The notes under the pieces: model-generated
Told to the model about the DNA's origin: nothing
Databases searched by the model: none
What the model saw: the letters and a program-made list of their open reading frames with translations, nothing else
Shown here: in pieces, positions 6,165 through 22,089 of the stretch
How positions within the stretch are numbered: position 1 is the stretch's first letter
Layout of the letters: every line of letters starts with the position of its first letter
Translations under genes and position numbers: made by a program
DNA from: Aureibaculum algae
GTDB taxonomy: Bacteria; Bacteroidota; Bacteroidia; Flavobacteriales; Flavobacteriaceae
Assembly (NCBI RefSeq): GCF_006065315.1
Contig: NZ_CP040749.1
Coordinates: forward strand, 1,426,001 to 1,490,000
Direction: 5' to 3'
DNA: 64,000 nt

Positions 6165-6186
6165 AGAAAGACCTTATTGATTAATT

Positions 6187-6222
6187 AAAAAAGCCTAAAA
6201 TATTCAATTTTAGGCTTTTTTT
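6187..6222 (+). terminator. Rho-independent terminator after the guaA-LysM unit
   Basis: A 15-bp perfect stem (6187-6201 with 6207-6221) contains AAGCCTAAAAT. The loop is 5 bases and is followed by a T run. It lies 23 bases after the LysM gene stop. Confidence 0.9.
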
Positions 6223-6246
6223 ATGTGCTAAAAGTACTCTATGATG

Positions 6247-6319
6247 TAAAATAGGAAAAATCCCCTTTTTAAATGGGGGAAAACCCTTTTGGGTATACTA
6301 TAATTTTTAACTATCTTGT
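6247..6319 (+). repeat. Shared upstream element, copy A (before first hybrid two-component gene)
   Basis: About 73 bases closely matching 11295-11368 upstream of the second regulator. In order it holds TAAAATAGG, a CCCC-Tn-AAAT-GGGGG inverted repeat, CCCTTTTGGG, ACTATAATTTTT and ACTATCTTGT. It begins after the previous operon's terminator and ends 85 bp before the ATG, so it is promoter or operator sequence rather than a terminator. Confidence 0.75.
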
Positions 6320-6404
6320 GAAGGTGAAATGTATTGAAAGTCAATGTATTGTATTGTATTTTAATAGAACTATTTTAAGAATTAATCAAAGTTAATTTGA
6401 ATTC

Positions 6405-9400
6405 ATGCTGTTTATCAGAAAAAAATATTCTTACCATTTATTAATAATTCTGTTCTTCTTCACATTTTATAATTCATTTTCGCAACATTATCACCAAAGG
6501 ATTAAACATTATTCTTTAGAAGATGGACTATCGCAAACTACCATTTTAGATTTATTAAAGGATAGTTCAGGTTTTATTTGGATTGGTACCCAAGGAGGGT
6601 TGAATAGATTTGATGGGCAACAATTTAGGCATTTTAAACCTATTTCGGAAGATACCACGTCTATTTCAAATACATATATAAATAAACTTTTAGAAGATAA
6701 GAATGGAAATATCTGGATCGGCACCTTAAATGGTCTTAATATTTATAATCCCCAGTCTGATGTTTTTAATAAAGTATCACTAAGTACCTTTAAAAATGAG
6801 ATCATAACCAGTTTGGAAGTTCAAGAAAATGGGACTATTTGGGTGGGAACAAGAAAAACAGGAGTACATAGACTTCTTCCTTTAGGACAAAACAAATTTC
6901 AAAAAGAAAATTTTCTAAGTACTACTTCGATAACATCTTTGTTTATTGATTCACAAAAACAATTATGGATTGGAGGTTTTGAAGGTGCGGTCTTTATATT
7001 AGATTTGAACAATAGTGAAATTGAATTAAAACCACTACATTTAAATATACAAGGCCGTGTACAAACTTTTTATAGAACAGAAAAAAAGCTTCTAATTGGT
7101 ACTGAAGTAGGTTTCTACATTTATGATTTAATTACAAAAAATGTAAAAAGAGTCAATTTGAATGAACAGCATCAGGGCTTAACCAAACAAGTAACTGAAT
7201 TTCTTGATGCTGGTAATTTCGGGGTTTGGGTAGGTACAGATTCTGGAGTATTTCTATTCGATTGGAAAAACGAAAAGGTGTTGAATAAAATTGAATATCG
7301 TGAAAATGACATCAAGGGATTAAGTAATGATAGAGTGTATTCGTTGCTGCAACTTAATGAAAGTCAGTTATTTGTTGGTACTAACAGTAATCTTGATCTA
7401 ATAGATTTCAACATTCCCTACTTTAAGAATATTTCGAAAAATAAAAAAGGAGCACACATTCTGAATGATAATTCTATTTCTGCCATTTTTAAGGATGAAG
7501 AATATACATGGGTAGGAACCTCTGTTGGAGGGTTAAATTTAATCACAAGGGATAAAACCTATTACTTTAAGGAAGACCAAACTAAGCCTTATGGCATTAC
7601 AGGAAATGAAGTTCGCGAAATACTGAAGGATACAAAAAATCAAAGATTATGGATCGCTACTACTCGGGGTCTTAATATGATAGATTTAAAAACCTTTGAT
7701 CCCGATCTGCCAATTTTTAAAACATTTACGTACGACCCTAAAAATTCTAATAGTATTAGTAATGATTTTTTAAAAGGTATTACCCTGGATACTGAATACA
7801 ATGTTTGGGGAGCAACTTATGGTCATGGTATATTTAGACTGCAGCTTAGTAATGATAATACAGTTAGCATTATTAGGTTCAAAAATAACAAAAGCGACCC
7901 AAATTCACTTGCCAATGATTTTGTGGAAAAAATTTTTTCAGATCCAAAAAATACCATTTGGGCTGGTACGCAAGGAGGATTAAGTAGATTAAGTTTTACG
8001 GACAATTCTTTGACAAAGCCAAGTTTTATAAATACCACGGTACTTGAAAGTTCTCGAAATTCTAACGCAACAAGTATTGTACTTGACATTACAATTGACT
8101 CTAAAGGTAACAAATGGTTAGCATCCTCCACTCATGGGCTAAATCTGTATTTAGGAAACAACAAATTCAAAACATGGACAGATAAAGAAATGAACCTAGA
8201 TGGAATTATCTATAGTTTACAACATGATGATAATGATAATTTATGGATGGGAACAACAGCAGGTATCATACGGTTTGATCCTAATACAGAAGAGTTTAAA
8301 ACCTATGGTATCGAAGATGGTATTCAGAACAAAGATTTTAATATGCATGCCAAATTTAAAGATAAGACAGGAACTATATATTTTGGAGGAGGAGGAGGCC
8401 TCACATATTTTCATCCAAAAGATTTGGAAACAATAGACCATCCACAGTCGCTTTACTTTTCTCAATTACGGGTGAAGGATGAAATTGTTAAGACCAAAAA
8501 AGCATCGAAACCTTGGTTAACTAGTGCCATAAGCAAAACGAATAGTTTACAATTTAAAAATGACGAATTCCCTTTCTATCTAAACTTTTCAAGTATTGAT
8601 TACAGGCTAAACAAAGATGTCTCCTTTGCCTACAAACTACTTCCCACAGATACGGAATGGAATGTTCTGAAAGATCTTGAAATACAGTTCTTAAATCTCC
8701 CTGCTGGTAATTATACTTTACAGGTTAATGGGTTTTCACGGGGTAAGGAATGGGAACAGCCACCTTTGGAGATGAGTTTGGAAATACTGCCGCCTTGGTG
8801 GTCAACTTGGTGGTCTTATATTATGTATGCTGTTATTGCGATTGCTCTGGCAGACAGGTTTTATCGCTTTCAGCTATCTAGAAAACTTGCCCTTGCTGAA
8901 TCTGATCGTCTTACAGGTCTAGATCAGCTAAAAAGTAATCTTTATACAAATATCACTCACGAATTCAGAACTCCGTTAACTGTAATTCTTGGAATGGCAA
9001 ATACGCTAAAATCAAATATTGAAGAAAAAGAATTTGATACTGCTGAAAAGTCGGTTGAAATGATTACCAGAAATGGAAATAATTTATTGAGACTTGTAAA
9101 TGAACTACTTGATTTAGCAAAATTAGAAAACGAAAAAATGGATTTAAATTTTATTAAAGGCGACATTATTCCTTTTATAAAATACCTCAGCGAAAGTTTT
9201 CATTCAATGGCAGATGAATCAAATATTAAGCTAACTGTTTATGCTGAAATTGATACGCTTGTCATGGACTATGATGTCGACAAACTATCGGCTATAACTT
9301 ATAACCTTATTTCAAACGCTATTAAGTTTAGCAACAAGTCTGATGGAAAAATCATAGTTCATATTAATCATAGTACAGTAAAGAAAAAAGAACATCTTAT

Positions 9401-10475
9401 TCTTAAAATTAAAGATAATGGTATTGGTATTTCTAATAAAAATATTCCAAATATTTTTAATCGGTTTTATCAAGTCAATGCATCCGAATCTAGATCTGGA
9501 GAAGGTACAGGAATAGGCCTCGCATTAACAAAAGAATTAGTGATTCTCATGGGTGGTACTATTGAAGTAAAAAGTGAACTTCATAAGGGGAGTGAATTTA
9601 TTATTGATTTGCCTATCACAAGAAATGCTGCAATAGCCAAAGACCAGCACTTCGACGCCAAGCCGGAACCATTAATCTCAAATGTAGAAAACAAAATTCT
9701 AAGTGTAGAAAATTTTGATCCTAATTCTGAAATACCGTTGTGCTTACTTATTGAAGATAATCACGATGTTGCTCATTATTTAGAGACTTGTTTAAAGCAC
9801 AACTATCAAACGATACATGCTCGTAATGGAATTGAAGGCATTGAACTTGCTTTAGAAAAAATACCAGACATTATTATTTGCGATGTAATGATGCCGGGTA
9901 AAAATGGTTACGAAGTTTGTAAAACGCTGAAAACCGATGAGCGAACTGACCATATTCCAATTATTATGCTTACCGCTAAAGTTACTTTAAAAGATCGGCT
10001 TACTGGTCTTTCGCATGGAGCAGATGCCTATTTGACAAAACCCTTTGTAAAAGCAGAATTGTTTACCCGATTAGATCAACTTATTGTTCTCCGAAAAAAA
10101 ATGTTGCTTAAAATAGAAAATAGCAACTTTAGTACTTTTATGAATAAGAAAGCTGAAAATCCTGAAACTAAATTCCTTCAAAAGGTCATACAGTTCATAA
10201 ATGATGATATTGAAAATTCCTCTTTTGGTTCAGAAAGTCTGGCAAGTAAGTTGAATTTAAGTGAATCTCAAATTTATAGAAAGCTGAAAGCAATTACTGA
10301 TAAATCTACTGCTGTTTTTATACGTTCAGTTAGATTACAAAGAGCGAAGGAATTAATTCAAACGACTGATAAAACGATTTCAGAAATTGCTTATGAGGTT
10401 GGTTTTAATAATCCTTCATGGTTTAGCCGTGCTTTTAAAGAGGAATTCGGACAGACTCCAGGTGATTTCAAGTAG
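6405..10475 (+). CDS. Hybrid two-component system (one-protein sensor kinase and AraC-type regulator)
   Basis: 1356 residues. A signal peptide (about 1-27) is followed by Reg_prop beta-propeller repeats (WIGTQGGLNRFDG, WIGTLNGLN, WVGTDSGVF), forming a periplasmic sensor to about residue 700. A Y_Y_Y domain follows, then a membrane helix near 800-820. The HisKA H-box is THEFRTPL with His852. The ATPase has NAIKFS, DNGIGI and GTGIGLAL. The receiver has phospho-acceptor Asp1160 (CDVMMPG) and a TKPF lysine. An AraC-type double helix-turn-helix ends the protein. Such proteins usually sense an oligosaccharide and activate a degradation locus. Here the neighbours are a lipoprotein and a secreted-protein cassette without SusCD, so the ligand is open. 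Confidence 0.93.
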   Translation: MLFIRKKYSYHLLIILFFFTFYNSFSQHYHQRIKHYSLEDGLSQTTILDLLKDSSGFIWIGTQGGLNRFDGQQFRHFKPISEDTTSISNTYINKLLEDKNGNIWIGTLNGLNIYNPQSDVFNKVSLSTFKNEIITSLEVQENGTIWVGTRKTGVHRLLPLGQNKFQKENFLSTTSITSLFIDSQKQLWIGGFEGAVFILDLNNSEIELKPLHLNIQGRVQTFYRTEKKLLIGTEVGFYIYDLITKNVKRVNLNEQHQGLTKQVTEFLDAGNFGVWVGTDSGVFLFDWKNEKVLNKIEYRENDIKGLSNDRVYSLLQLNESQLFVGTNSNLDLIDFNIPYFKNISKNKKGAHILNDNSISAIFKDEEYTWVGTSVGGLNLITRDKTYYFKEDQTKPYGITGNEVREILKDTKNQRLWIATTRGLNMIDLKTFDPDLPIFKTFTYDPKNSNSISNDFLKGITLDTEYNVWGATYGHGIFRLQLSNDNTVSIIRFKNNKSDPNSLANDFVEKIFSDPKNTIWAGTQGGLSRLSFTDNSLTKPSFINTTVLESSRNSNATSIVLDITIDSKGNKWLASSTHGLNLYLGNNKFKTWTDKEMNLDGIIYSLQHDDNDNLWMGTTAGIIRFDPNTEEFKTYGIEDGIQNKDFNMHAKFKDKTGTIYFGGGGGLTYFHPKDLETIDHPQSLYFSQLRVKDEIVKTKKASKPWLTSAISKTNSLQFKNDEFPFYLNFSSIDYRLNKDVSFAYKLLPTDTEWNVLKDLEIQFLNLPAGNYTLQVNGFSRGKEWEQPPLEMSLEILPPWWSTWWSYIMYAVIAIALADRFYRFQLSRKLALAESDRLTGLDQLKSNLYTNITHEFRTPLTVILGMANTLKSNIEEKEFDTAEKSVEMITRNGNNLLRLVNELLDLAKLENEKMDLNFIKGDIIPFIKYLSESFHSMADESNIKLTVYAEIDTLVMDYDVDKLSAITYNLISNAIKFSNKSDGKIIVHINHSTVKKKEHLILKIKDNGIGISNKNIPNIFNRFYQVNASESRSGEGTGIGLALTKELVILMGGTIEVKSELHKGSEFIIDLPITRNAAIAKDQHFDAKPEPLISNVENKILSVENFDPNSEIPLCLLIEDNHDVAHYLETCLKHNYQTIHARNGIEGIELALEKIPDIIICDVMMPGKNGYEVCKTLKTDERTDHIPIIMLTAKVTLKDRLTGLSHGADAYLTKPFVKAELFTRLDQLIVLRKKMLLKIENSNFSTFMNKKAENPETKFLQKVIQFINDDIENSSFGSESLASKLNLSESQIYRKLKAITDKSTAVFIRSVRLQRAKELIQTTDKTISEIAYEVGFNNPSWFSRAFKEEFGQTPGDFK

Positions 10476-10520
10476 CTTATAAACAGGTGTTTAACATTTT
10501 TTATTGCATAAGTTTGCAAT

Positions 10521-10580
10521 AATAGTATAATACTTTCCTACACAATTCATAATTACTTCTATTGATTGAAATAATAGTGA
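10521..10580 (+). promoter_or_regulatory. Two phased AATAGT motifs before the lipoprotein gene
   Basis: AATAGTAT (10521-10528) and AATAGTGA (10573-10580) start 52 bases apart, close to five helical turns. The first overlaps a hairpin with arms TTATTGC and GCAATAA at 10501-10522. The longer string TGCAATAATAGTA at 10515-10527 recurs at 15599-15611, also downstream of a hybrid two-component gene. These are candidate AraC-domain sites; the link is inference. Confidence 0.4.
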
Positions 10581-10638
10581 ACATCATTATTTAATAATCA
10601 CAATATCATTGCATCATAATAACTATAAAACATATATT

Positions 10639-11199
10639 ATGAAAAACACAATGAGAATTTTACCGCTTGCTATTATTATGATTATAAGCTCTTGTAGTAG
10701 CGAAACATTTACTGAACCACTGCCGGATAAAACTAAATCTGTGGTCGTTATTATTGATCATAACGATAATGAAATTCAGGAGTCTTTATCAACACTCCAT
10801 CGAAATAGAGACGGAATTGCAGTAAGCTTTAAAACTAATGGGTTAATACCAGGAAATGTATATACTTTATGGTATGTAATCTTTGGAGAGACTTCAGGGC
10901 CACCAACATCTACTTACGCAGGTGGTATTATATCAGATGGAAATGGAAATGGTAATTTTACGGCACAAAAAAGTATTGGAGAGATATTTAATAACCCCCT
11001 TACTGCTGAAGTGCATTTGGCATTACGAACTCATGGGCAAGCTCAACCGGGAATGATAGCTAGTCAGATCCAGACTATGGATGGCGGGTGTCTTTTACCT
11101 GATATTGGTTTTCCATCGGGTCCTACGCTACATCCAGATTCTGACCAGTTAGGGTATTGTGCTAATATTCAAGTTGCCATGCATCCTGCCGTAAAATAA
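10639..11199 (+). CDS. Small lipoprotein of unknown function
   Basis: 186 residues from ATG 10639. The signal peptide ends in a lipobox (ISSC), followed by Ser-Ser-Glu. The mature part looks like an all-beta domain with VVVIIDHNDNE, GLIPGNVYTLWYV, a glycine-rich SDGNGNGNF turn and a conserved-looking segment HLALRTHGQAQPG followed by MDGGC. Cysteines near MDGGC and LGYCAN could pair. I do not recognise a named domain. It lies between two hybrid two-component genes and has its own terminator, so it may be a direct target of one of them. An in-frame TTG at 10609 is less likely as start because ATG 10639 gives a proper signal peptide. Confidence 0.7.
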   Translation: MKNTMRILPLAIIMIISSCSSETFTEPLPDKTKSVVVIIDHNDNEIQESLSTLHRNRDGIAVSFKTNGLIPGNVYTLWYVIFGETSGPPTSTYAGGIISDGNGNGNFTAQKSIGEIFNNPLTAEVHLALRTHGQAQPGMIASQIQTMDGGCLLPDIGFPSGPTLHPDSDQLGYCANIQVAMHPAVK

Positions 11200-11244
11200 A
11201 AATACGGTTTACAAAAGTAGAACAGTAACTGTTTTATTGAAGAA

Positions 11245-11285
11245 AAAAAACAGCTTGAAACCATCATTTTAAGCTGTTTATTTTT
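11245..11285 (+). terminator. Rho-independent terminator after the lipoprotein gene
   Basis: The stem AAACAGCTT (11248-11256) pairs with AAGCTGTTT (11271-11279), extended by A-T pairs, and is followed by TATTTTTAT. A shorter hairpin (AACAG-TAA-CTGTT) lies just before it at 11221-11233. Confidence 0.8.
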
Positions 11286-11294
11286 ATAATTTCT

Positions 11295-11368
11295 TAAAAT
11301 AGGGAATAACCCCTTTTTTAATGGGGAAAAACCCTTTTGGGCAGTACTATAATTTTTCACTATCTTGT
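11295..11368 (+). repeat. Shared upstream element, copy B (before second hybrid two-component gene)
   Basis: About 74 bases that align with 6247-6319 with only a few substitutions and single-base gaps. CCCC at 11310-11313 faces GGGG at 11323-11326. CCC at 11332 and GGG at 11339 flank TTTT. The last third (ACTATAATTTTT, then ACTATCTTGT) is almost identical in both copies. It starts after the terminator at 11245-11285 and ends 60 bp before the ATG. Confidence 0.75.
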
Positions 11369-11404
11369 TAGACTTAAAAATATACTATATAAATACCAGT
11401 ATTC

Positions 11405-11412
11405 TAGATTTG
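11405..11412 (+). promoter_or_regulatory. -7 promoter box of the second hybrid two-component gene
   Basis: TAGATTTG matches TAnnTTTG and would start transcription about 13 bases before ATG 11429. No TTG at the right -33 distance is visible. That fits a promoter needing an activator bound at the shared element upstream. Confidence 0.35.
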
Positions 11413-11428
11413 TAAATTCTATCCAACA

Positions 11429-14400
11429 ATGAAACTATTTCAACGTGATTTTATTGTGCCAATGAGAAAATACCGTTTGCATAGCCTTTTGATAACTTTC
11501 TTATTCTTTAATTTTTCTTATTCTTTTTCTCAGCAGATCAAAAATTCTAATACAGAACTTACACCTCTAGAAATTTGGGAATCTGGATTACCATATATTG
11601 AAAACTATAACTATGCTGATTATAAGAATAGCCCATGGAACTTTAGAATTATAGAAGGAAATAATGGATTTATTTATGTAGGGAATGGTGAAGGAGTCCT
11701 TGAATTTGATGGTAATACATGGGAGTTTATTCCAACAGAATTTAAAGATTGGGTGATGGCTTTCTCTAAAACAGTAAATGATAAAATATATGTAGGAGGT
11801 CGCCGAGATTTAGGGTATTTGGAACCGGATGAACTTGGTACAATGAAATATAAATCGCTCACAGCTAATCTTGATCCCAACTTTAAAGATTTCAATGGTT
11901 TTGCCTCAACGAAAACAGATGGTATTTCTTCAACTGTTACAAATGGAGATAATGTGTATTTTTCATCCTCTAAATACCTTTTTAGATGGGACGGTGAAAA
12001 ATTTAAAACTTGGAAGGCACAGGAAGAGTTTGGCGAAATTTTTAAGGTAAATGGTTCACTATATATAATTGATTTAGGTGTTGGATTACAAAAACTAGTT
12101 GATGATTCTTTTCATGTAATTTCTGGCTCGGAGATTTTAACTAAAAATTATGAAAAACGTATTGTAGAAATACGCGAAATGTTACCCTATCGAAATAATC
12201 AAATCTTAATTATTCATTCAGATCAGGGCATGGTACTTTACAATGGTGAAAATTTTGAACCATTTAACGAAAAAAGCAATGAAATTTTAGAAAAAAGCAA
12301 TATATATGGTGGAGTTGCTTTATCAAATGGAGATTATGCACTTGCATCACTTGTTTCCGGAGTATTTATAATTGACGGAAAAACAGGTGAAATAAAAAAG
12401 AGAATTGGAAAAAGACACGGTTTGACTAGTAATGAACTTTATGCTATATATGAAGACAGTAATGGTGCGATTTGGGTTTGTGGTGGTGAAGGTATTTCTA
12501 AGATAGAATGGGCATCACCGTTTAGAATATTCAATGATTTGAGTGGGTTAAATGAAATTGTGACTTCTGTATGTTATCAGTCAGGTAAATTATTTGTTGA
12601 GAGTAACGGACTATATTATTTGGCAAAGGACAATTCTTATATGGAGAATAAAAAGTTGGTTTTTGAAAAAATAAAAGGGATTAGGGCTGGTAGACTTATG
12701 GGTATTACTTCTTCTAACAATAATATATTTACTTATAATGAAAGTCAAATTTATAAAATTAGTAATACTTATGAAGCAGAACTTATTATTGAAATGGTGA
12801 TTGGTTTTTCTTCTATTGTAAAATCAAAAGTAAATAATTCAAAATTTCATTTGGCTACGTATGATAAAGAGTTATATGAACTTAACCTTATAAATAATAA
12901 ATGGTATACTGAATTTGTTCTTCAAACAGATGGAGTCATAACAGATATTGAGGATGATTCCTTAGGTAATCTATGGTTTGCTGTACACGATAAGGGGTAC
13001 TATTATGGTGAAAAGTTATCTGATAATATAGAAAGTACAACTAATTTCGAGATTAAAAAATACAAATCTATGGATGAACTTCCGTCGATTTCAAAAAGTT
13101 TTATCACTAAATTTAAAAATGAATTGGTCGTAAATACGGACGAAGGTTATTATAAATTTAATAATAATGACCAAACTTTTGAAAAGTATAGTTTATGGCC
13201 AAATCAGTACGATAAATATGGCGAGAATACGGTTGTCGAATTTGGTTTTGAGAAATTTGATAATAAAGGTGAATTATGGCATACAACTAGAGCTGATAAT
13301 GTAACTAGAGTCTTTAAACTCTCTCAAGATAAACTTACTGAACTTAAAGAAATTAAGCTGTTTTCTGATTCTAGAATAGAATATTTTGAGCTTATGGGTG
13401 AAATTTCGCTTTTCGTTACAACAAATAACGGTATACTTATGTATAATCCGAATATGGTTAGATCTTTCAACAAAAACTTGAGCACTAAATTAAGAAAGGT
13501 ATGGATAAATAATGATTCTTTGATTTATGCTGGCTCTGACCGGTACAAGAACATGGAAGATAGTTTTGAACTGCCTTTTAAAAAAAATACACTAAAATTT
13601 GAATATTCTCTTCCTTATTACACCAAATCAGAAAACAATACGTATCAATATATCTTGGAAGGTTTTGACGATGACTGGTCGTCTTGGTCTACCGAGACAA
13701 AAAAAAATTACACCAAAATACCTGAAGGTGACTACACATTCAAAGTACGCTCTAAAAACATTTATGATGAATCTGGAAATGAAGATAGTTATTACTTCAC
13801 CATTTTACCACCATGGTATAGAACATGGTGGGCATACCTATTATATATTATTGGATCCATCGGTGTTGTAACCTTATATTCTAAATGGAGGTCTAATGAG
13901 TTGCAGAAAAAGAATGTAGCACTTGAAAATACCATTAACAATCGTACACTTGAAATAAGACAAAAGAATAAACTTTTGAATCACCAAACGGAGCAATTAG
14001 AGCAGTTGAACGAATCAAAAACAAGGTTGTACTCAAACATCACCCATGAATTTCGTACACCATTAACCGTAATCTTAGGGATGGTGGACACCTTAAAAAC
14101 AAACGTGCCTTTTAATAGTTTCGAAGGAGCTGAAAAATCATTAGAAATGATTCGACGTAACGGTAAAAATTTATTAAAATTAGTTAATGAGCTCTTAGAT
14201 TTGGCAAAGGTTGAGAGCGGCTCAATGGAGTTGAATTTGATTCAGACTGATGTTATACCGTTTGTCAAATATTTGAGTGAAAGCTTTCATTCTTTAGCGG
14301 AAGCTAAGAAAATAAATCTCACTGTTTATTCTGAAATTGACGGCTTGGAAATGGATATAGATGTGAATAAGATGGCATCGATTATTTCCAATTTGCTTTC

Positions 14401-15559
14401 AAATGCAATTAAATTTACTTCTGCTAACGGAAAGATAATAGTGCATCTGAACAAAGCAAAAAATGATGGTGCTAAAGTATTCATAATAAAAGTACAAGAT
14501 AATGGGTTAGGATTGTCAGAAGACGACATTGCCTCATTATTTGACCGTTTCTATCAGGCAGATAACCGAAATTTACAATATCAAGTAGGTACAGGTATCG
14601 GACTTTCTTTGGTAAAAGATTTTGTAGAATTAATGAATGGAACTATTGGGGTTGAGAGTATTCTCGGTAAAGGAAGTACGTTTACTGTTCAACTTCCTGT
14701 AACCCATAATGCAGTTAAGACGGTAGATGCTTCAATAACGATAGAGCCAACTATAAAAAAAGAAACTAATATTATAAAATCAGAACCAATTGACTCGAAT
14801 GGGCTTTCTACTTTGCCATTAGCTCTTATAATTGAGGATAATGAAGATGTAGCCCATTATTTAAAAACTTGCTTAAAAGGAAAGTACCAAACCATGCATG
14901 CCATAAATGGCAATTTAGGTATAGAAATGGCCTTTGAAAAAATACCTGATATCATTGTAAGTGATGTTATGATGCCTGGGAAAGATGGTTTTGAAGTGTG
15001 TACAATACTAAAAACAGATGAGCGTACAGACCATATACCTATAGTAATCTTAACCGCTAAAGTAACAACAGAAGATCGTTTAACAGGACTATTACACGGT
15101 GCAGATGCCTATTTGGCCAAACCCTTTAACGAAAAGGAATTATTTATTCGATTAGATCAATTGGTTTTACTCCGAAAAAAATTAAATGAAAAAATTCAAA
15201 AAGAGGGCTTAAATTCATTTCTGGACAAACAAGTAGAAAGTCCAGAAACAAAATTTCTTATAAAAGTTAAACAATTTATAAATGAGGATATTGGCAATTC
15301 TGAATTTGGTTCAGGAAACCTTGCAAACAAATTGAATTTAAGCGAGTCGCAAGTCTATAGAAAATTGAAGGCCATTACTGATAAATCTACTGCGGTTTTT
15401 ATCCGTTCAGTAAGATTGCAAAGAGCGAAAGAATTAATTCAAATTACAGACAAAACCATTTCTGAAATTGCTTACGAGGTCGGTTTTAACGATCCATCTT
15501 GGTTTAGTAAGGCCTTTAAAGATGAATTTGGTTTTGCACCTAGTGAAATTAATAAGTAG
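11429..15559 (+). CDS. Hybrid two-component system, paralogue of the gene at 6405
   Basis: 1376 residues. A signal peptide ends near YSFSQQ; ATG at 11462 is an alternative start giving a shorter n-region. The periplasmic propeller is more divergent than in the first paralogue. It is followed by a Y_Y_Y domain, the PWYRTWWAYLLYIIG membrane helix and a coiled linker (QTEQLEQLNESK). The kinase H-box has His873 in THEFRTPL. ATPase motifs are NAIKFT, DNGLGL and GTGIGLSL. The receiver has Asp1179 and an AKPF lysine. The final AraC domain is nearly identical to that of the first regulator over its recognition helices. Divergent sensors with near-identical DNA-binding ends suggest two ligands feeding one regulon. 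It precedes the secreted-protein cassette. Confidence 0.93.
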   Translation: MKLFQRDFIVPMRKYRLHSLLITFLFFNFSYSFSQQIKNSNTELTPLEIWESGLPYIENYNYADYKNSPWNFRIIEGNNGFIYVGNGEGVLEFDGNTWEFIPTEFKDWVMAFSKTVNDKIYVGGRRDLGYLEPDELGTMKYKSLTANLDPNFKDFNGFASTKTDGISSTVTNGDNVYFSSSKYLFRWDGEKFKTWKAQEEFGEIFKVNGSLYIIDLGVGLQKLVDDSFHVISGSEILTKNYEKRIVEIREMLPYRNNQILIIHSDQGMVLYNGENFEPFNEKSNEILEKSNIYGGVALSNGDYALASLVSGVFIIDGKTGEIKKRIGKRHGLTSNELYAIYEDSNGAIWVCGGEGISKIEWASPFRIFNDLSGLNEIVTSVCYQSGKLFVESNGLYYLAKDNSYMENKKLVFEKIKGIRAGRLMGITSSNNNIFTYNESQIYKISNTYEAELIIEMVIGFSSIVKSKVNNSKFHLATYDKELYELNLINNKWYTEFVLQTDGVITDIEDDSLGNLWFAVHDKGYYYGEKLSDNIESTTNFEIKKYKSMDELPSISKSFITKFKNELVVNTDEGYYKFNNNDQTFEKYSLWPNQYDKYGENTVVEFGFEKFDNKGELWHTTRADNVTRVFKLSQDKLTELKEIKLFSDSRIEYFELMGEISLFVTTNNGILMYNPNMVRSFNKNLSTKLRKVWINNDSLIYAGSDRYKNMEDSFELPFKKNTLKFEYSLPYYTKSENNTYQYILEGFDDDWSSWSTETKKNYTKIPEGDYTFKVRSKNIYDESGNEDSYYFTILPPWYRTWWAYLLYIIGSIGVVTLYSKWRSNELQKKNVALENTINNRTLEIRQKNKLLNHQTEQLEQLNESKTRLYSNITHEFRTPLTVILGMVDTLKTNVPFNSFEGAEKSLEMIRRNGKNLLKLVNELLDLAKVESGSMELNLIQTDVIPFVKYLSESFHSLAEAKKINLTVYSEIDGLEMDIDVNKMASIISNLLSNAIKFTSANGKIIVHLNKAKNDGAKVFIIKVQDNGLGLSEDDIASLFDRFYQADNRNLQYQVGTGIGLSLVKDFVELMNGTIGVESILGKGSTFTVQLPVTHNAVKTVDASITIEPTIKKETNIIKSEPIDSNGLSTLPLALIIEDNEDVAHYLKTCLKGKYQTMHAINGNLGIEMAFEKIPDIIVSDVMMPGKDGFEVCTILKTDERTDHIPIVILTAKVTTEDRLTGLLHGADAYLAKPFNEKELFIRLDQLVLLRKKLNEKIQKEGLNSFLDKQVESPETKFLIKVKQFINEDIGNSEFGSGNLANKLNLSESQVYRKLKAITDKSTAVFIRSVRLQRAKELIQITDKTISEIAYEVGFNDPSWFSKAFKDEFGFAPSEINK

Positions 15560-15598
15560 TTGATTTTTAGTCAATTAATTTTATTTTTCATGCTCCAA

Positions 15599-15664
15599 TG
15601 CAATAATAGTACTAGCTTTTTCTTACTGATGATCTAATATTACTAGTTTTTGATCCAATAGTAC
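15599..15664 (+). promoter_or_regulatory. Three phased AATAGTAC-like motifs before the secreted-protein cassette
   Basis: AATAGTAC (15605-15612), AATATTAC (15636-15643) and AATAGTAC (15657-15664) start 31 and 21 bases apart, about three and two helical turns. The first two are embedded in longer similar strings, AATAGTACTAG and AATATTACTAG. The array ends about 130 bp before the first cassette gene. They are candidate binding sites for the hybrid regulators' AraC domain. Confidence 0.45.
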
Positions 15665-15796
15665 ACGCCCCTTAATAAATCACTTTTTAATTTTACAACA
15701 GTAATTCGTATACGATAGAAATTCTTAAAAATATTTCTAAAGAGATAAAGCTATTAAACATCATATTAAGATGCCAAAAATAAATATTTGTAAAAA

Positions 15797-17749
15797 ATGA
15801 AAATTATGAAAACTAAGAGCGTACATGTAAAAAACAGGAACAATTCAGCTTGTTGGAAAAATGCAAGCAAGAGCAACTACAGTTTATTACACTACATCAT
15901 TATTCTGTTAATATTTAGTGCAAGTAATACTCTACAGTCCCAAGCAAGCTTAGCTGCTGAAAACAGAATTGATGATTTAGTTGTAACAACAGATGATGGA
16001 GAGAAAAAAACCTACTCAGTTTTTAGAGATGCTGAACAAACAGATCAATATTATTATGTACCTAATGAGGCTCGAGTTACAACGACTAAAGATAAAAAAG
16101 GAAAAGAATTTCCAGATCTTACATTGTTACGCTATCAATATGACCCATCAGATGGTGGTCCAACACAACAAGGAGGTATTATACAAGGCACAATGACTAT
16201 GGCTGCAGAACCAGAGGTAATTGAAACTATGAAGAAATATATCTTAAAAAAGGCACCGAAAGCCGGAACAATCAAATTAGCCCCAATACCGCTTGAAAAA
16301 TGTGACTTTGAAATAAGAACTGAAAAGGGACTGTTTTTAGGAAATCCTGAAACTAATACAGCTTTTCAAGGCCCTTTAATTGCTAATCAAAAAATGGGTT
16401 TTAGTTTAAGCTTGAATGAATTAGGTGCAGCAGTTATATCAGAACTAGCCACTGGAAAAGGAGGTGTTTTAATAAGTGTTTCTATAAAGTACAGAGGTTT
16501 AACTCCACCTTGTGGATATAATATTACTGGAAAATGGGAAAGTGTTTATGAATATTATCAGAAACAAACAAAATTAGAAGGGGGATTAAGTTTGGGACCC
16601 ATTAAGTTAGGAGGGAGTAAAACAAAGGAAGAAATAATTGAAGACCTCAATGAAACTAGTGGTGTAAAAGTGGAAAGAATAAAATGTCCATCACCTGAAA
16701 ATGCTACCGGAAATTCTACTGATGAATCTTTGGAAGACGAACATTTTCAAAGGCTAAAAGATAAAATAGAGAACGAGGTTCTGAGTAAAGAATACAAAAC
16801 AAAAGAGGCACGCTTAACCGAATTACAATCATTATATGAAAGTACTGATGATGAAGGAATTAAAAAGAAATTAATGGATGAAATTACTATGGGTGAGAAG
16901 TCATTAAAAGCGGGATATCAAAACTCGGTAAAAGATATTAAAAACATGAAAAAAGGTACTATTTCTTATGATTCAAGGACTCAATATCTAGAGTCTAGAG
17001 AAACTACGTTCTTTGGGCTAATAGGCTTTTCAAAGTTTAATATGACCGAAGAGGAGCTAAAAGAAAATGGGCATATTATAGATATCAATGCTAATGATAC
17101 GTTTCCATATATAGCAATAGGGTTACAGGATATAAACCTGAACTTCGACTTAAGATCATTAGCTCTCGATATAAGTTATACAAATAGCGAAGGTGACACA
17201 AATAGCTTAGCATGTAGATGGACTCCAGAAAAAAAGTGGAGAAACTTTGAAGGTGCTAGTATAGATTATTTGAGATTTAATTTGATAGGTGAAAAAGATA
17301 TAGAAAGACGCAATGAACCTAAATTTAATATTAAACTACAAGTCAATTCAAAACTACTTAATGGTGATTTTATTATAGAAAAAGAAGTACAACTTGAAAA
17401 GGGTAAAAAAAACATGGATGGCATTGGCCAAATTACTAAACAGTTATCAATTGATGGCAGCAGTTTATCTTTTCATAAAATAACAGGTGATAATTCAGAT
17501 TTAGATTTGGCAGAGGTTACCCTTAAAATAGGTGATCTAATTATTAAAAAAGCTATAAAACCATATGTTCAGAATGGAGTTTATGGGGAACCTAAACCTA
17601 TAGTTTTACTAGTACCAAAAGATGAAACTTCCATATCTAGTGAAGTGAATTTTATAACTAAGAGGGAAGAAATTAAAAAAACAGCACTCATAGAAATAAC
17701 TGAAAATACATTGCGAGATCTACAATGGAGAACTTTTGATGATGAATAG
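15797..17749 (+). CDS. Secreted protein of unknown function, first gene of a four-gene cassette
   Basis: 650 residues, not recognised. After a long basic n-region, a hydrophobic stretch (about residues 34-46) looks like a signal peptide ending near LQSQA; ATG 15806 is an alternative start. The first half is rich in beta-type segments (YYYVPNEARV, LTLLRYQYD, GTMTMAAEPEV). There is one cluster of short glycine-rich strands near 265-280 and a charged, probably coiled-coil helix around residues 315-385. Four cysteines follow the signal segment. It sits 237 bp after the second regulator, with phased motifs in the gap, and 21 bp before the next gene. No enzyme motif is visible. A structural or adhesive envelope role is only a guess. 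Confidence 0.75.
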   Translation: MKIMKTKSVHVKNRNNSACWKNASKSNYSLLHYIIILLIFSASNTLQSQASLAAENRIDDLVVTTDDGEKKTYSVFRDAEQTDQYYYVPNEARVTTTKDKKGKEFPDLTLLRYQYDPSDGGPTQQGGIIQGTMTMAAEPEVIETMKKYILKKAPKAGTIKLAPIPLEKCDFEIRTEKGLFLGNPETNTAFQGPLIANQKMGFSLSLNELGAAVISELATGKGGVLISVSIKYRGLTPPCGYNITGKWESVYEYYQKQTKLEGGLSLGPIKLGGSKTKEEIIEDLNETSGVKVERIKCPSPENATGNSTDESLEDEHFQRLKDKIENEVLSKEYKTKEARLTELQSLYESTDDEGIKKKLMDEITMGEKSLKAGYQNSVKDIKNMKKGTISYDSRTQYLESRETTFFGLIGFSKFNMTEEELKENGHIIDINANDTFPYIAIGLQDINLNFDLRSLALDISYTNSEGDTNSLACRWTPEKKWRNFEGASIDYLRFNLIGEKDIERRNEPKFNIKLQVNSKLLNGDFIIEKEVQLEKGKKNMDGIGQITKQLSIDGSSLSFHKITGDNSDLDLAEVTLKIGDLIIKKAIKPYVQNGVYGEPKPIVLLVPKDETSISSEVNFITKREEIKKTALIEITENTLRDLQWRTFDDE

Positions 17750-17770
17750 AAATCCTTACAAAATTGTACT

Positions 17771-19744
17771 ATGAAAAATTATGTTAATTATATAGTCTTA
17801 GGTTTTTGTCTGATGATGTCTGTCAATTTGCTTGCACAGGTAAGAAAAACTAAAACAGTATCAAGTAAAAACACTAAGGTGTTTTATCAAGCAGGTAGAA
17901 AATCGGCAATAGTTTTACCCACACGAAAAATAATGCATAGGTCTGATAAGTTAGTTTGGGTTTATGCTACCAATACTTCGAAAGGTAATTGGCAAAGAGC
18001 TCAAGCCAAAGACAACGAATTATTTACAGAATTAAGAAAGAGCGGTGACTCATTATATAGAACGAATTTTAGTAATGATTTTAGAGTTCCGCGAATTGCA
18101 TTTGAACCTGATCGATTTGAACAACATCCTGAATGGCTTACCAAAAACGGAAGCTTAGTAAAATCTGATGGAAGTAGTCGAATAGAATTGAAAGGTGCTA
18201 CAGGCAAAACTAATATCTATTATCATAAAAACATTAATCTGCTATTGATGAGTTTTGCAGGTTATAACAAATATGGCCTACCAGAAACAAATCGAGCTAA
18301 CACTAATCATATTATTGTAACAGACACCCTGATAATTCCACCTCACAGCATGGGATTTATGAATGTACAAAGGCGTAATAAAGGTTATGTTAAAATAATA
18401 GCGAATTGTATTATCTATGAGCGTCCGGTAAAAGTTACTTCAACAATGATTTCTGAAAAGACGAATTTTGTGATCTCTGCACGCAAGATATTATTAAAAT
18501 CTCCATATAAAGACTTAACTGATAAAGCCCTTAATACTGCACCCTTTGTTTGGAAAGTAGATCCTAGTAATGTTGAATTTTACAAAGAAGCGTTTAAAGA
18601 TATTGAGGAATTGCTTTTTAATAGGTTATTAATAGAGTATTTAAAACTAGTAACTATAAACTTACAAAACCCTGCAAATGATAGCTGGTCAAAGGATAGA
18701 CTTTTAGCAAAATTTCAAACATACAGGGGACGGGTCAACTTCAATGAGTTAAACAATGATAGTGAATATTACAGCCTATTTACTGACCTATGCAAAGAAT
18801 TCGATACCAAATACGGAAATGGTAAAATTGGTCCGCATAGAACAATTAATGACTTAGATATACTAGTAGAAGGTAACATACAAGATTTACCAGTAGTGCC
18901 ATTTAAATATTATGCTGTACCATCAACGGCCACCCTTTTACCAGTTAAAAATCACGCTACTGGAGTACAAGATAAACTGGGTGATTTATATTATAAAGCT
19001 ACTGGCGAATCAAAAATGTCAGTAACACTAGAAGTAAAATTAGGGTATGATGCAATAAAAATTGCTGAGGTTAAGAAGGCACTAAAGGAGAAAGGATTTG
19101 TTTTAGAAAATATCCCTCCTAAAACGGTAATGGCTATTAATGAACAACCTTTAAAAGCAAAGGGTAGAACAATCGGTGAAATAATACCTATTAGTAATCA
19201 AATTCTTCGATTTGAAATTGACCTTCCTGATGAAGGTCTAGACATCATAAAACTTTTTCTGAAAGACGATAATATTTTTGATTTAGACTATAAAGTATAC
19301 CAAGGACAGAAAGAAAGTAATCAAAAAATAATGCTTACAATTCCTGAAAACATTTTAAAACAAATAGATTTTGCTGATTTACTCAATGAGTTTAACACCA
19401 TTGAAAGTAATACAATGACAGTAACTGATGCTGTCATAATAACCAGCAATCTATCACCAGTTTTAGAAGGTAGTGGAGAAGGCACTTTAGAATATATAGA
19501 AGTATCCTTAGAATTTTTGTTTGATGACAAGACCGTATTTCGAGGTCCTGAAAGATTCTCTTCACACTCTGTAAATGGTTCAGAAAAGGAGATACCATTT
19601 ATGAAACATTCAGATAATTATAAAATTATTGTAACGGGTACTGCATACTATGAATTTGGAAATAGAGAAATAATAAAAGAGAATAGCTTTACCAATACTG
19701 ATAAATATATTACGCTACAAGAAAGCATGTTTAATAAGAATTAA
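17771..19744 (+). CDS. Secreted protein of unknown function, second cassette gene
   Basis: 657 residues, not recognised. It has a clear signal peptide (about 1-22, ending LLAQ). The N-terminal part after it holds the repeated-strand text VFYQAGRKSAIVLPTR and a polar segment with IELKGATGKTNIYYHKN. The middle is helical (FKDIEELLFNRLLIEYLKL). The C-terminal third returns to beta-type segments ending in a VTGTAYYEFG strand. No catalytic motif was found and no T9SS-type C-terminal sorting domain is evident. It lies 21 bp after the first cassette gene and 12 bp before the lysozyme-like gene, so an operon is very likely. Confidence 0.75.
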   Translation: MKNYVNYIVLGFCLMMSVNLLAQVRKTKTVSSKNTKVFYQAGRKSAIVLPTRKIMHRSDKLVWVYATNTSKGNWQRAQAKDNELFTELRKSGDSLYRTNFSNDFRVPRIAFEPDRFEQHPEWLTKNGSLVKSDGSSRIELKGATGKTNIYYHKNINLLLMSFAGYNKYGLPETNRANTNHIIVTDTLIIPPHSMGFMNVQRRNKGYVKIIANCIIYERPVKVTSTMISEKTNFVISARKILLKSPYKDLTDKALNTAPFVWKVDPSNVEFYKEAFKDIEELLFNRLLIEYLKLVTINLQNPANDSWSKDRLLAKFQTYRGRVNFNELNNDSEYYSLFTDLCKEFDTKYGNGKIGPHRTINDLDILVEGNIQDLPVVPFKYYAVPSTATLLPVKNHATGVQDKLGDLYYKATGESKMSVTLEVKLGYDAIKIAEVKKALKEKGFVLENIPPKTVMAINEQPLKAKGRTIGEIIPISNQILRFEIDLPDEGLDIIKLFLKDDNIFDLDYKVYQGQKESNQKIMLTIPENILKQIDFADLLNEFNTIESNTMTVTDAVIITSNLSPVLEGSGEGTLEYIEVSLEFLFDDKTVFRGPERFSSHSVNGSEKEIPFMKHSDNYKIIVTGTAYYEFGNREIIKENSFTNTDKYITLQESMFNKN

Positions 19745-19756
19745 TACACGACTATT

Positions 19757-20632
19757 ATGAAACTAATAATAAATATGATACTAATTCTAATAATTAGTAC
19801 TGGGTTGATAGACACGAGAAATAGTACAAGTAGAACACAATTATTAAGTAACAAAAAAAAGATTTCCGATTTAGTAAAAGAAAATGATTCAACTTTAATA
19901 GCAAAAAGAAAAGCACATTATATGAAGTACCCAGAAAGGGGTAATTTAACTAAAGATCGTGAGGGCGTACACCCTAAAGCTAAGGTTCCCAAAGGACGCA
20001 AGGGAGAAGATAATTCAGGAATTACTTTGGCACTTGGTATCGATTTAGCCGCTGGGTTTAGCAAAAGTCACCAACGACAAAAAATTGCTGACGCCATAAA
20101 TGCAGATGAAGATTTACGAGATTGGATAATTAGAGTACCAACAACCCGAGGTGAGAAAGCACGTTCTTGGTTAAAGAAAGAAGGTAACCATAGCCCAATT
20201 TTTAATAAAAATCAGATGAACCAACTTTACGAGTTTGGGTATAACTTTTTTATAGAAAGAGCTAAAAAAAGATTGCTGGGTACTACTGGGTATCCTATAG
20301 CGGATGTTATTCCAGAACATAGGCTTACCGAAACAGAGTTTGCAGATTTAGCATTAAATATTGCTGATGGTGACCAAGATTATTTATACGAGTTATTAGC
20401 TGACATTGCATGGAATTCGGGGCAGTTTGCCAGAGGGCGGCAGAACCATATTGCTCGTGCTTTAAAAGTTGAGGGTGATACATTAAGTAGGGTTGACAAG
20501 CAAATAATACGATTAAATGCTCTACGTATTCTTATTCATAATAGAAAAATTCCGACTAGTCGTAGTGGGAGAATAAATCGATTAGCCTGGATAGATTCTA
20601 AAGTGGATATTTTAAGACAAAATAGGTATTAA
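19757..20632 (+). CDS. Secreted or anchored lysozyme-like protein, pesticin/T4-type (proposed)
   Basis: 291 residues. A hydrophobic N-terminus (about 3-18) acts as signal peptide or anchor. Residues 69-101 hold an EG pair followed by SGITLALGIDLAAG. This resembles the active-site region of the pesticin/T4 lysozyme fold, known to use Glu, Thr and Asp. Here Glu69, Thr90 and Asp96 are the candidates; Thr and Asp are six residues apart, as in pesticin. The rest is helical, including a WNSGQFARG segment, as expected for a muramidase C-lobe. The proposed role is cleavage or binding of peptidoglycan in the periplasm or outside. A catalytically dead binder is the alternative. Its cassette neighbour has an OmpA-like wall-binding domain, which fits. 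Confidence 0.6.
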   Translation: MKLIINMILILIISTGLIDTRNSTSRTQLLSNKKKISDLVKENDSTLIAKRKAHYMKYPERGNLTKDREGVHPKAKVPKGRKGEDNSGITLALGIDLAAGFSKSHQRQKIADAINADEDLRDWIIRVPTTRGEKARSWLKKEGNHSPIFNKNQMNQLYEFGYNFFIERAKKRLLGTTGYPIADVIPEHRLTETEFADLALNIADGDQDYLYELLADIAWNSGQFARGRQNHIARALKVEGDTLSRVDKQIIRLNALRILIHNRKIPTSRSGRINRLAWIDSKVDILRQNRY

Positions 20633-20682
20633 GGCCATGTTAAAGAATTAATAGACTAATAAAAAACTTAAAATAAGTAATT

Positions 20683-21744
20683 ATGAAAACATATGTGAAT
20701 ACAGTTTTTGGAGTTATGTTTTTTTTATGCATGACTATTATACAAGCTCAAAATAGTGATTCTACGAATGACAGATTTCCTTTTGAATATAATGAGCGAT
20801 CTAAAACTACTGAAGTTTCATTGATTTGGGATAAAGTGTATACTAATTTGTATGCGAGTTTTATGAATGAAGATAATGTCATAATACTACATAGTTATAG
20901 TAGTGCAACGGGCAAAAAAGAATACAACATGAAATTATCAAAAGAAAGAGGAAATGCAGTGAAAAAATTTCTAGTAAATAATGGTGTTGAAGCTTCAAGA
21001 ATTAAAATTCAACCACATGGAGAACCAAACATTGAGAATTATGATGATGATTATGCAGGCGACAGAAATGTAATTCCAGAATTTAAAAGGCGAACAACAG
21101 AAAAATCCAAAGATTTTATAGATGCGTTTAAAAGCAAAGAAACGTTAGACGATGATATTAATGAAGGACATAAAATATTTTTAAAAATTGTTAATCCATA
21201 CGTTACTTACATTAAAAATAAGTATCACCTTCAAGAACTACCAGGGCCAGGTAGGCCGTCAAAAGATGTAAATGAGTTCTTAAAACAAACTAAGGAAGTT
21301 TTTGATGATGCCAAGGGAGCTTATGGTGATGCAACTACAGGTGATTATAAAAATTTAGCGGAAGTAGTTGGTAACTATGGAGCAGCATCATTTATCGATT
21401 TGTTCACGAGCCTGCAAGCTGGTAAGGTTGCTAAAAATAGAAAGTTACTTTATGATGTAATTGGAGAGGCTTTTGCTACGGAATGCTTTCCAAATTACAA
21501 TGCAAATATTGAAGATTGCACTATTATTGAAAAATTTTTATTTTACTCGGTAAAGTACAAAGTTAGTGGGCTTTCAAATTTGAAAAAATATAAGTTGAGG
21601 GTAAGATTTGTTGCTGGAAAAACGCATACGATGAGTACGTTTCCTCGGAGCTACCGGTTTGAGCGAAGCATGGATGATTACTCTATGTTTATGGCTAATA
21701 TTCGCCATTATTTTGCATTATCCGATACAAGGTATAAAGATTAG
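20683..21744 (+). CDS. Secreted OmpA-like domain protein, fourth cassette gene
   Basis: 353 residues. A signal peptide (about 1-22, ending IIQAQ) is followed by an OmpA-type domain in the first half: VIILHSYSSATGKKEYN, then LSKERGNAVKKFLVNNGV and IKIQPHGEPN. These match the LSxxRAxAV and xGxGE positions of OmpA/MotB domains, which bind peptidoglycan diaminopimelate. The usual His-Thr-Asp is replaced by HSYSS. The C-terminal 200 residues are unrecognised, with a glycine-proline turn (LPGPGRPS) and a cationic final beta region. It lies 50 bp after the lysozyme-like gene. There is no barrel, so it is not a classic OmpA porin. Confidence 0.7.
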   Translation: MKTYVNTVFGVMFFLCMTIIQAQNSDSTNDRFPFEYNERSKTTEVSLIWDKVYTNLYASFMNEDNVIILHSYSSATGKKEYNMKLSKERGNAVKKFLVNNGVEASRIKIQPHGEPNIENYDDDYAGDRNVIPEFKRRTTEKSKDFIDAFKSKETLDDDINEGHKIFLKIVNPYVTYIKNKYHLQELPGPGRPSKDVNEFLKQTKEVFDDAKGAYGDATTGDYKNLAEVVGNYGAASFIDLFTSLQAGKVAKNRKLLYDVIGEAFATECFPNYNANIEDCTIIEKFLFYSVKYKVSGLSNLKKYKLRVRFVAGKTHTMSTFPRSYRFERSMDDYSMFMANIRHYFALSDTRYKD

Positions 21745-22089
21745 TATTGAAATTTTAAAAGGGAAATAATTTTTATTTAGGCTTTTCAATTATTAGATTC
21801 AATAGCACTGTTTATTTCACAAATAGTGCAAGATATTGACAAAATAATGAAAGTAATTTTTTGTAGAATAACCTAACATTGTAACATCAAAAAATTGATT
21901 GATATCTCTATTAAAAATATGAAAGTTTTTAATAAAAGGATTTTGATTCCGATAAATTACATAGGGGTTTAGGACAATTTTCTTGTATACTCGTCCTAAT
22001 TGATTTGATATTGAGATAAATAGCATTTATTTTCATTAACTTTTAAGATTAAAAACAATTAATAATAAATAACCATTAAATAAAAAGAA
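21745..22089 (+). other. Gene-free stretch after the cassette
   Basis: 345 bp, very AT-rich. It holds an imperfect hairpin (GCACTGTTT at 21805-21813 with AAATAGTGC at 21821-21829) without a following T run, and a weaker TAGGAC/GTCCTA pairing near 21970-22000. No convincing coding frame, terminator or promoter was found. Confidence 0.4.

Follow-up and report, generated by a model that had tools for sequence, protein, structure and literature searches.

What does a hybrid two-component system (HTCS) regulator control when the genes behind it are not those of a polysaccharide locus? HTCSs are presented chiefly as regulators of polysaccharide loci in an excerpt of PMC11253607. The question is raised by positions 6247 to 21744 of a 64,000-nucleotide stretch of the Aureibaculum algae genome (contig NZ_CP040749.1, positions 1,426,001 to 1,490,000; hereafter the window). 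A first-pass annotation described there two sensor-regulators, a lipoprotein gene and a four-gene cassette with gaps of 21, 12 and 50 bp, and the list of open reading frames (ORFs) bears out the genes, their coordinates and the gaps:

6405..10475, + strand: HTCS1, hybrid two-component sensor-regulator by its Pfam domains, within the cassette HTCS clade
10639..11199, + strand: LP, lipoprotein-like gene from the ORF list, without a Pfam family
11429..15559, + strand: HTCS2, hybrid two-component sensor-regulator by its Pfam domains, within the cassette HTCS clade
15797..17749, + strand: A, exported protein of 650 amino acids without a known family; N-terminal alpha/beta domain, helical stretch and two Ig-like domains
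17771..19744, + strand: B, exported protein of 657 amino acids without a known family; weak hint of an A-type domain
19757..20632, + strand: C, predicted pesticin-type muramidase with candidate catalytic residues E69, T90 and D96
20683..21744, + strand: D, exported protein with an OmpA domain of the peptidoglycan-binding type (Pfam) and a C-terminal extension

The answer that we prefer, and hold tentatively, is that the locus is an exchangeable, inducible cassette of exported lytic proteins, induced by the HTCSs, with A and B as carrier or scaffold. One HTCS lineage would bind paired direct repeats just 3' of its own gene and activate the genes behind them. The main operon would yield A and B, which would leave the cytoplasm by their signal peptides and act as carrier or scaffold, and it would also supply a peptidoglycan-cutting enzyme (here C) and the wall-binding protein D. 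Recombination at fixed chromosomal sites would swap the enzyme and, in some places, the cassette as a whole; the homology would come from the flank and from the conserved 3' half of an HTCS gene together with its adjoining repeats. Because the enzymes are varied, the target may be the wall of other bacteria, in competition or predation.

The A-B pair and the genes that follow it

A scan of 84,980 species, with one genome each, returned six A-bearing loci, and together with a locus in the genome G211 and the window itself, eight were read (L005 and L008 come from one genome). B directly follows A in all eight, and for this reason the locus is more than a chance arrangement. In five loci (the window, L004, L005, L006 and L013) an HTCS stands before A, with one gene intervening in L004 and L013. 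The expectation that a regulated cassette recurs in other Bacteroidota is thus borne out, and failure to co-occur can be set aside for A and B. In L003, the regulators before A are a TPR histidine kinase and a LuxR-type response regulator. In L002, A is preceded by a divergent pair resembling sigma and anti-sigma factors (by eye), with a CHAT-TPR gene behind; no regulator adjoins A in L007. A protein with jacalin and ricin-type lectin parts lies before A-B in this last locus, from Flavilitoribacter nigricans (L007:8366-9472).

The gene after B changes from locus to locus. It is C in the window and L006, and an Amidase_2-like gene in L004 (E 3e-5) and L005 (E 0.002), neither match reaching the Pfam cut-off, and in L013, whose product is 54% and 63% identical to those of L004 and L005. 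In L003 it encodes a protein with an HEXXH motif, in L002 a D-like OmpA protein (39%) and in L007 a helical-looking unknown; no enzyme was recognised as the third gene in these last two of the eight loci. C therefore occurs in two loci and D or a D-like protein in three (the window, L006 and L002), and the idea that the same four genes travel as a set does not hold, because other proteins replace C. L013, where the stretch read contains neither C nor D, resembles the window in A (85% identical) and B (60%), and L006 resembles it in C (79%) and D (48%) but less so in A (40%) and B (38%). As far as these comparisons go, the type of the core and that of the enzyme are inherited independently. Accessory exported-looking proteins that are 41% identical (L013:8346-9017 and L090:2777-3460) end two otherwise different cassettes.

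The pair is also rare. In a search of about 5.8 billion proteins, in which scoring for A and B was confined to the roughly 8,000 candidates with the most shared words, A has at least 26 relatives (itself included), B at least 12 and C seven. Since the longest contig of eight of the 11 other B proteins is of the same size as that of some A protein, A and B seem to be linked in metagenomes too. Among 100 relatives, A was found in the own genome alone. Its profile is full-length in three of 397 family genomes (the own genome, G211 and G272) and partial in two more, and full-length in two of 395 phylum genomes (the own genome and G211) and partial in two; the two samples overlap.

A and B had been called large unknown exported proteins, and indeed neither has a Pfam or NCBIfam family above the cut-off. 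Signal peptides are seen by eye in A, B, C and D, and the putative processed N-terminus of A, QASLAAE, is nearly invariant across 24 aligned relatives. The model of A (mean predicted local distance difference test, pLDDT, 73) has an alpha/beta N-terminal domain (about residues 55-250), followed by a helical stretch and Ig-like domains. Kinship between A and B was considered and is not established: in a direct profile comparison the signal peptide is the only match, and the A domain alone against the B profile gives E 0.0047, or, with a richer B set, a suggestive E 0.00047 at a probability of 33%, at profile positions 386-511 of B.

C had been described as lysozyme-like. By its predicted fold, which is that of a pesticin-type lysozyme, this description stands; by Pfam it does not, as neither C nor the seven family members match a lysozyme or pesticin model (E up to 10). 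The candidate catalytic residues E69, T90 and D96 are invariant in all seven members, and T90 and D96 are six residues apart, the same as T201 and D207 (mutant names). C shares its predicted fold and an E...T-x5-D pattern with pesticin and with the pesticin-like effector domain of the type VI secretion system (T6SS) protein VgrG3. Unlike these, it stands alone with a signal peptide (by eye), carries no receptor-binding or spike domain, and has no Pfam match. C would cut peptidoglycan; we infer that A, B and C may form a complex and that A and B may carry the enzyme.

Library searches complete the picture of the cassette. The OmpA domain of D passes the Pfam cut-off (42.4 bits against 27.2), in keeping with the first description of D, while A, B and C have no family in Pfam, NCBIfam or PADLOC, and D matches in PADLOC only ZorB, through its OmpA part (E 3e-6). 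As claimed from the start, Pfam finds no glycoside hydrolase or SusC/SusD in LP, A, B, C or D, and hence no SusC/SusD-type pair, the mark of a polysaccharide utilization locus. The NCBIfam library includes models of the sorting domain of the type IX secretion system (T9SS), and no such C-terminal domain matches A to D (E up to 0.1). The suggestion of an export apparatus gained nothing, since no finding points to one. No cognate immunity gene was recognised by Pfam or NCBIfam, where LP and D could be unknown families, and no paper in the open-licence literature was recognised as concerning these cassette proteins.

Regulators, repeats and sites of exchange

HTCS1 and HTCS2 each contain Reg_prop, Y_Y_Y, HisKA, HATPase_c, Response_reg and HTH_18, all above the Pfam cut-off. 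They are, as proposed, paralogous one-protein regulators, both complete and 35% identical over 1467 columns. Their sensor halves are only 20% identical, which makes control by two signals plausible. A tree built from the last 560 residues (24 rows) groups seven of the eight cassette or site HTCSs in one clade, with 100/100 support against 16 comparison HTCSs from the own genome, G211 and G272; the HTCS of L004 falls outside. An earlier tree of 22 rows had placed five of six in the clade. The rows comprise seven of the 13 other matches of the own-genome search, six weaker or partial ones (L036-L041) having been dropped, and all nine other matches of a second HTCS search. Among the outsiders, the HTCS nearest to the clade is L044, about 50 kb from the cassette in G211 and followed by an 818-residue exported-looking protein (L053:6087-12956). 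The own genome also contains an HTCS-like match interrupted by one in-frame TAA (C1:2025270-2026499).

The elements that may govern the locus are as follows:

6247..6319, + strand: 74-bp element upstream of HTCS1, 89% identical to the copy before HTCS2
10512..10585, + strand: putative HTCS operator ahead of LP, with direct repeats TTGCAATAATAGT / TTGAAATAATAGT at +45 and +97 counted from the HTCS1 stop
11248..11279, + strand: terminator-like hairpin between LP and HTCS2, with 13 pairs and a T-rich tail
11295..11368, + strand: 74-bp element upstream of HTCS2
15596..15669, + strand: putative HTCS operator ahead of A, with direct repeats ATGCAATAATAGT / TTGATCCAATAGT at +45 and +97 counted from the HTCS2 stop
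21813..21834, + strand: further repeat copy between D and SnoaL, 17.8 bits, weak alone

The direct repeats are centred on AATAGT and lie exactly at +45 and +97 after the HTCS stop at the HTCS1-LP and HTCS2-A junctions and in L005. Once this pattern was fixed, L088 (from G008) was examined and has them likewise at +45 and +97, making four HTCS stops in total. The repeats at the L006 and L013 junctions are 21 bp apart; no exact copy was found in L087 (from G007), and none on the coding strand in L004. In the 5.17-Mb genome, the double-site pattern occurs twice with at most one mismatch, both times at the locus, and once more when two mismatches are allowed (mirrored control, 0); because these two sites helped to define the pattern, the count speaks for specificity and not for independent discovery. 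By this measure the repeat pair is specific to the locus, and we infer that the HTCSs bind such pairs. Leaving aside the four training sites, the window scores highest at 21813 and at 21513 (- strand), both 17.8 bits, and the copy at 21813 is weak alone because its equal at 21513 falls inside D.

The two copies of the 74-bp element are 89% identical although the HTCS proteins that they precede are 35% identical; the remaining matches in the genome span at most 28 bases (E above 0.002). Position 6247, where the stretch first singled out begins, is the first base of the copy before HTCS1. Overall, scans for terminator-like hairpins (five found, 4.8 expected) and Sigma-70 sites (65 found, 58.6 expected) gave no excess. 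Two units, HTCS1-LP and HTCS2-A-B-C-D, seem to have been joined in the window, and the terminator-like hairpin lies between them. In LP, the ORF opens with a TTG at 10609, probably too early a start, and the first ATG is at 10639.

How did the cassette come to this place? The genus-mate G016 has an empty site, with a LysM gene, about 330 bp and then SnoaL-TPR-pdhC-pdhA. At the same site, two further genus-mates have different cassettes headed by an HTCS: G007 has an HTCS that is 58% identical to HTCS2 over its length, together with a set including five A-type-domain proteins, and G008 has an HTCS 56% identical to HTCS1 with other exported-looking proteins. Comparison of these three sites delimits the locus as a discrete insertion from about 6165 to 22089, with SnoaL and TPR as flank. 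The TPR gene (window:22797-24527), 77% identical in L006 (L006:16357-19780, where a second TPR gene, 27% identical, precedes), had been a candidate cassette gene and was ruled out by the empty site. The cassette of L006 may sit at this chromosomal site too. A TonB-type receptor gene at 24565 is present in G007 and G008 and absent between TPR and pdhC in G016. Behind the HTCS1-like regulator of G008 lies an exported-looking protein (L088:6924-8600) with a Vitellogenin_N match (E 4e-12, above the cut-off), a lipid-transfer-type domain in a bacterial cassette.

By blockwise identity, the G008 regulator is itself a mosaic: its sensor blocks are 39-75% identical to HTCS1 and 14-26% to HTCS2, and its output blocks are 57-96% identical to HTCS2 and 45-88% to HTCS1. 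The window DNA from 14136 to 15665, repeat region included, is 82% identical to G008. Two distinct A-B cassettes, L004 and L013 (L013/L014), share a second site, ruvB-P450-[ ]-queG-maeB-ruvA. Relatives of LP occur in four of 99 other genomes searched, none of the four with A; in G024 the relative lies between P450 and queG, and in G012 before queG.

The cassette HTCSs share with those of Bacteroidota polysaccharide loci the one-protein architecture and a gene adjoining the probable targets. They differ in that the targets are not SusC/SusD or polysaccharide enzymes, and in forming a distinct clade with a locus-specific repeat pair. An HTCS lineage that heads exported cassettes and is tied to a defined DNA element would be a different kind of HTCS regulon, and one that can be tested directly.

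Alternative roles and the wider family of A

The N-terminal domain of A occurs at a single place in the own genome, its profile matches in six of 395 phylum genomes, and it is also found in longer proteins of other Bacteroidota; with one of these, tblastn matched three Alphaproteobacterial plasmid records. Nine wider clusters were read (G379, G410, G548, G720, G641, G802, G007 and two plasmid records). Their A-type genes are often tandem paralogues, and several clusters lack an evident signal peptide (by eye). An enzyme lies in or beside five of the nine, as a raw count: an N-acetylmuramidase (PF11860) and a papain-like protease with a chagasin-type inhibitor in G720, an N-acetylmuramidase in G641, GH46 (chitosanase) in G802, two caspase-like proteins in G548, and a PLD-like protein with an annotated trypsin-like gene in the Paracoccus plasmid cluster. 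G379 has only a PG_binding_1 fragment at a contig end, and no enzyme was recognised in the G410, Pararhizobium or G007 clusters. A long partner protein in some clusters was considered as a B, an identity that profile comparison did not establish.

It is possible, though doubtful, that the A-type domain is an undescribed delivery or assembly module, paired with interchangeable hydrolases, of a diversifying class of bacterial weapons, and that the Flavobacteriaceae load it into exchange sites under HTCS control, where sensor, core and enzyme reshuffle independently of one another. The module appears to be exported in the Flavobacteriaceae, with several other clusters showing no evident signal peptide. 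With A and B an unannotated protein family comes into view, which in part of its clusters stands beside wall hydrolases and proteases, and if the module does act on other cells, Bacteroidota would possess a modular lytic weapon.

Could the enzyme instead act on the cell's own wall? A, B and D might form a periplasmic or outer-membrane structure, with the enzyme opening the wall to admit or reshape it and the HTCSs sensing the envelope or wall fragments. Large trans-envelope machines have dedicated wall enzymes, and the single wall enzyme per operon, the wall-binding domain of D, the signal peptides of A to D and the missing T9SS sorting domains are consistent with such a role. The patchy distribution of A among relatives, an enzyme exchanged between unrelated families, and wider relatives beside proteases and a PLD-like gene, odd company for a housekeeping wall enzyme, make it rather unlikely. 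Nutrient scavenging is improbable. Here the HTCSs would run the extracellular or periplasmic digestion of peptidoglycan, chitosan-like polymers or debris, with A and B binding the polymer; the muramidase, amidase-like and GH46 proteins, the lectin before A in L007 and the polysaccharide loci with which HTCSs are chiefly associated in the excerpt of PMC11253607 point this way. Against it, the cassette has no SusC/SusD, the TonB-type receptor is separated from it by SnoaL and TPR and occurs in the A-less G007 and G008 as well, and the proteases and PLD-like genes near relatives are out of place.

Defence or programmed cell death, in which the enzyme would break the own wall once a threat is sensed, appears very improbable, although the changing content of the exchange site and some distant neighbours recall it. 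A-type genes on the Paracoccus plasmid adjoin genes annotated as EAD1, trypsin-like and ATP-binding, those of L020 lie beside two caspase-like genes, and EAD1, trypsin-like and caspase-like parts belong to proposed NTP-dependent conflict systems according to an excerpt of PMC7159879. However, the window's cassette has none of these parts, abortive defence is poorly served by a switch as slow as transcription, and the PADLOC match to ZorB, limited to the OmpA part of D, is no full defence system.

The exported lytic cassette that we prefer has likenesses of its own. Polymorphic toxin systems, such as the TANFOR proteins of Bacteroidetes, combine a conserved exported part with interchangeable toxic or hydrolytic parts that include peptidoglycan hydrolases, as an excerpt of PMC7073777 describes; A, B and C differ in being separate ORFs with no fusion and with no recognised immunity gene. 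According to an excerpt of PMC8213781, a pesticin domain and peptidoglycan hydrolases are among the antibacterial toxins that extracellular contractile injection systems carry as cargo, whereas no contractile-tail family is among the Pfam matches of the cassette.

On the Paracoccus plasmid pNSM5TCa (L026), long hypothetical genes stand in a row, two of which are covered by the match to an A-type protein, and the row has neighbours annotated as trypsin-like, EAD1, ATP-binding and PLD-like.
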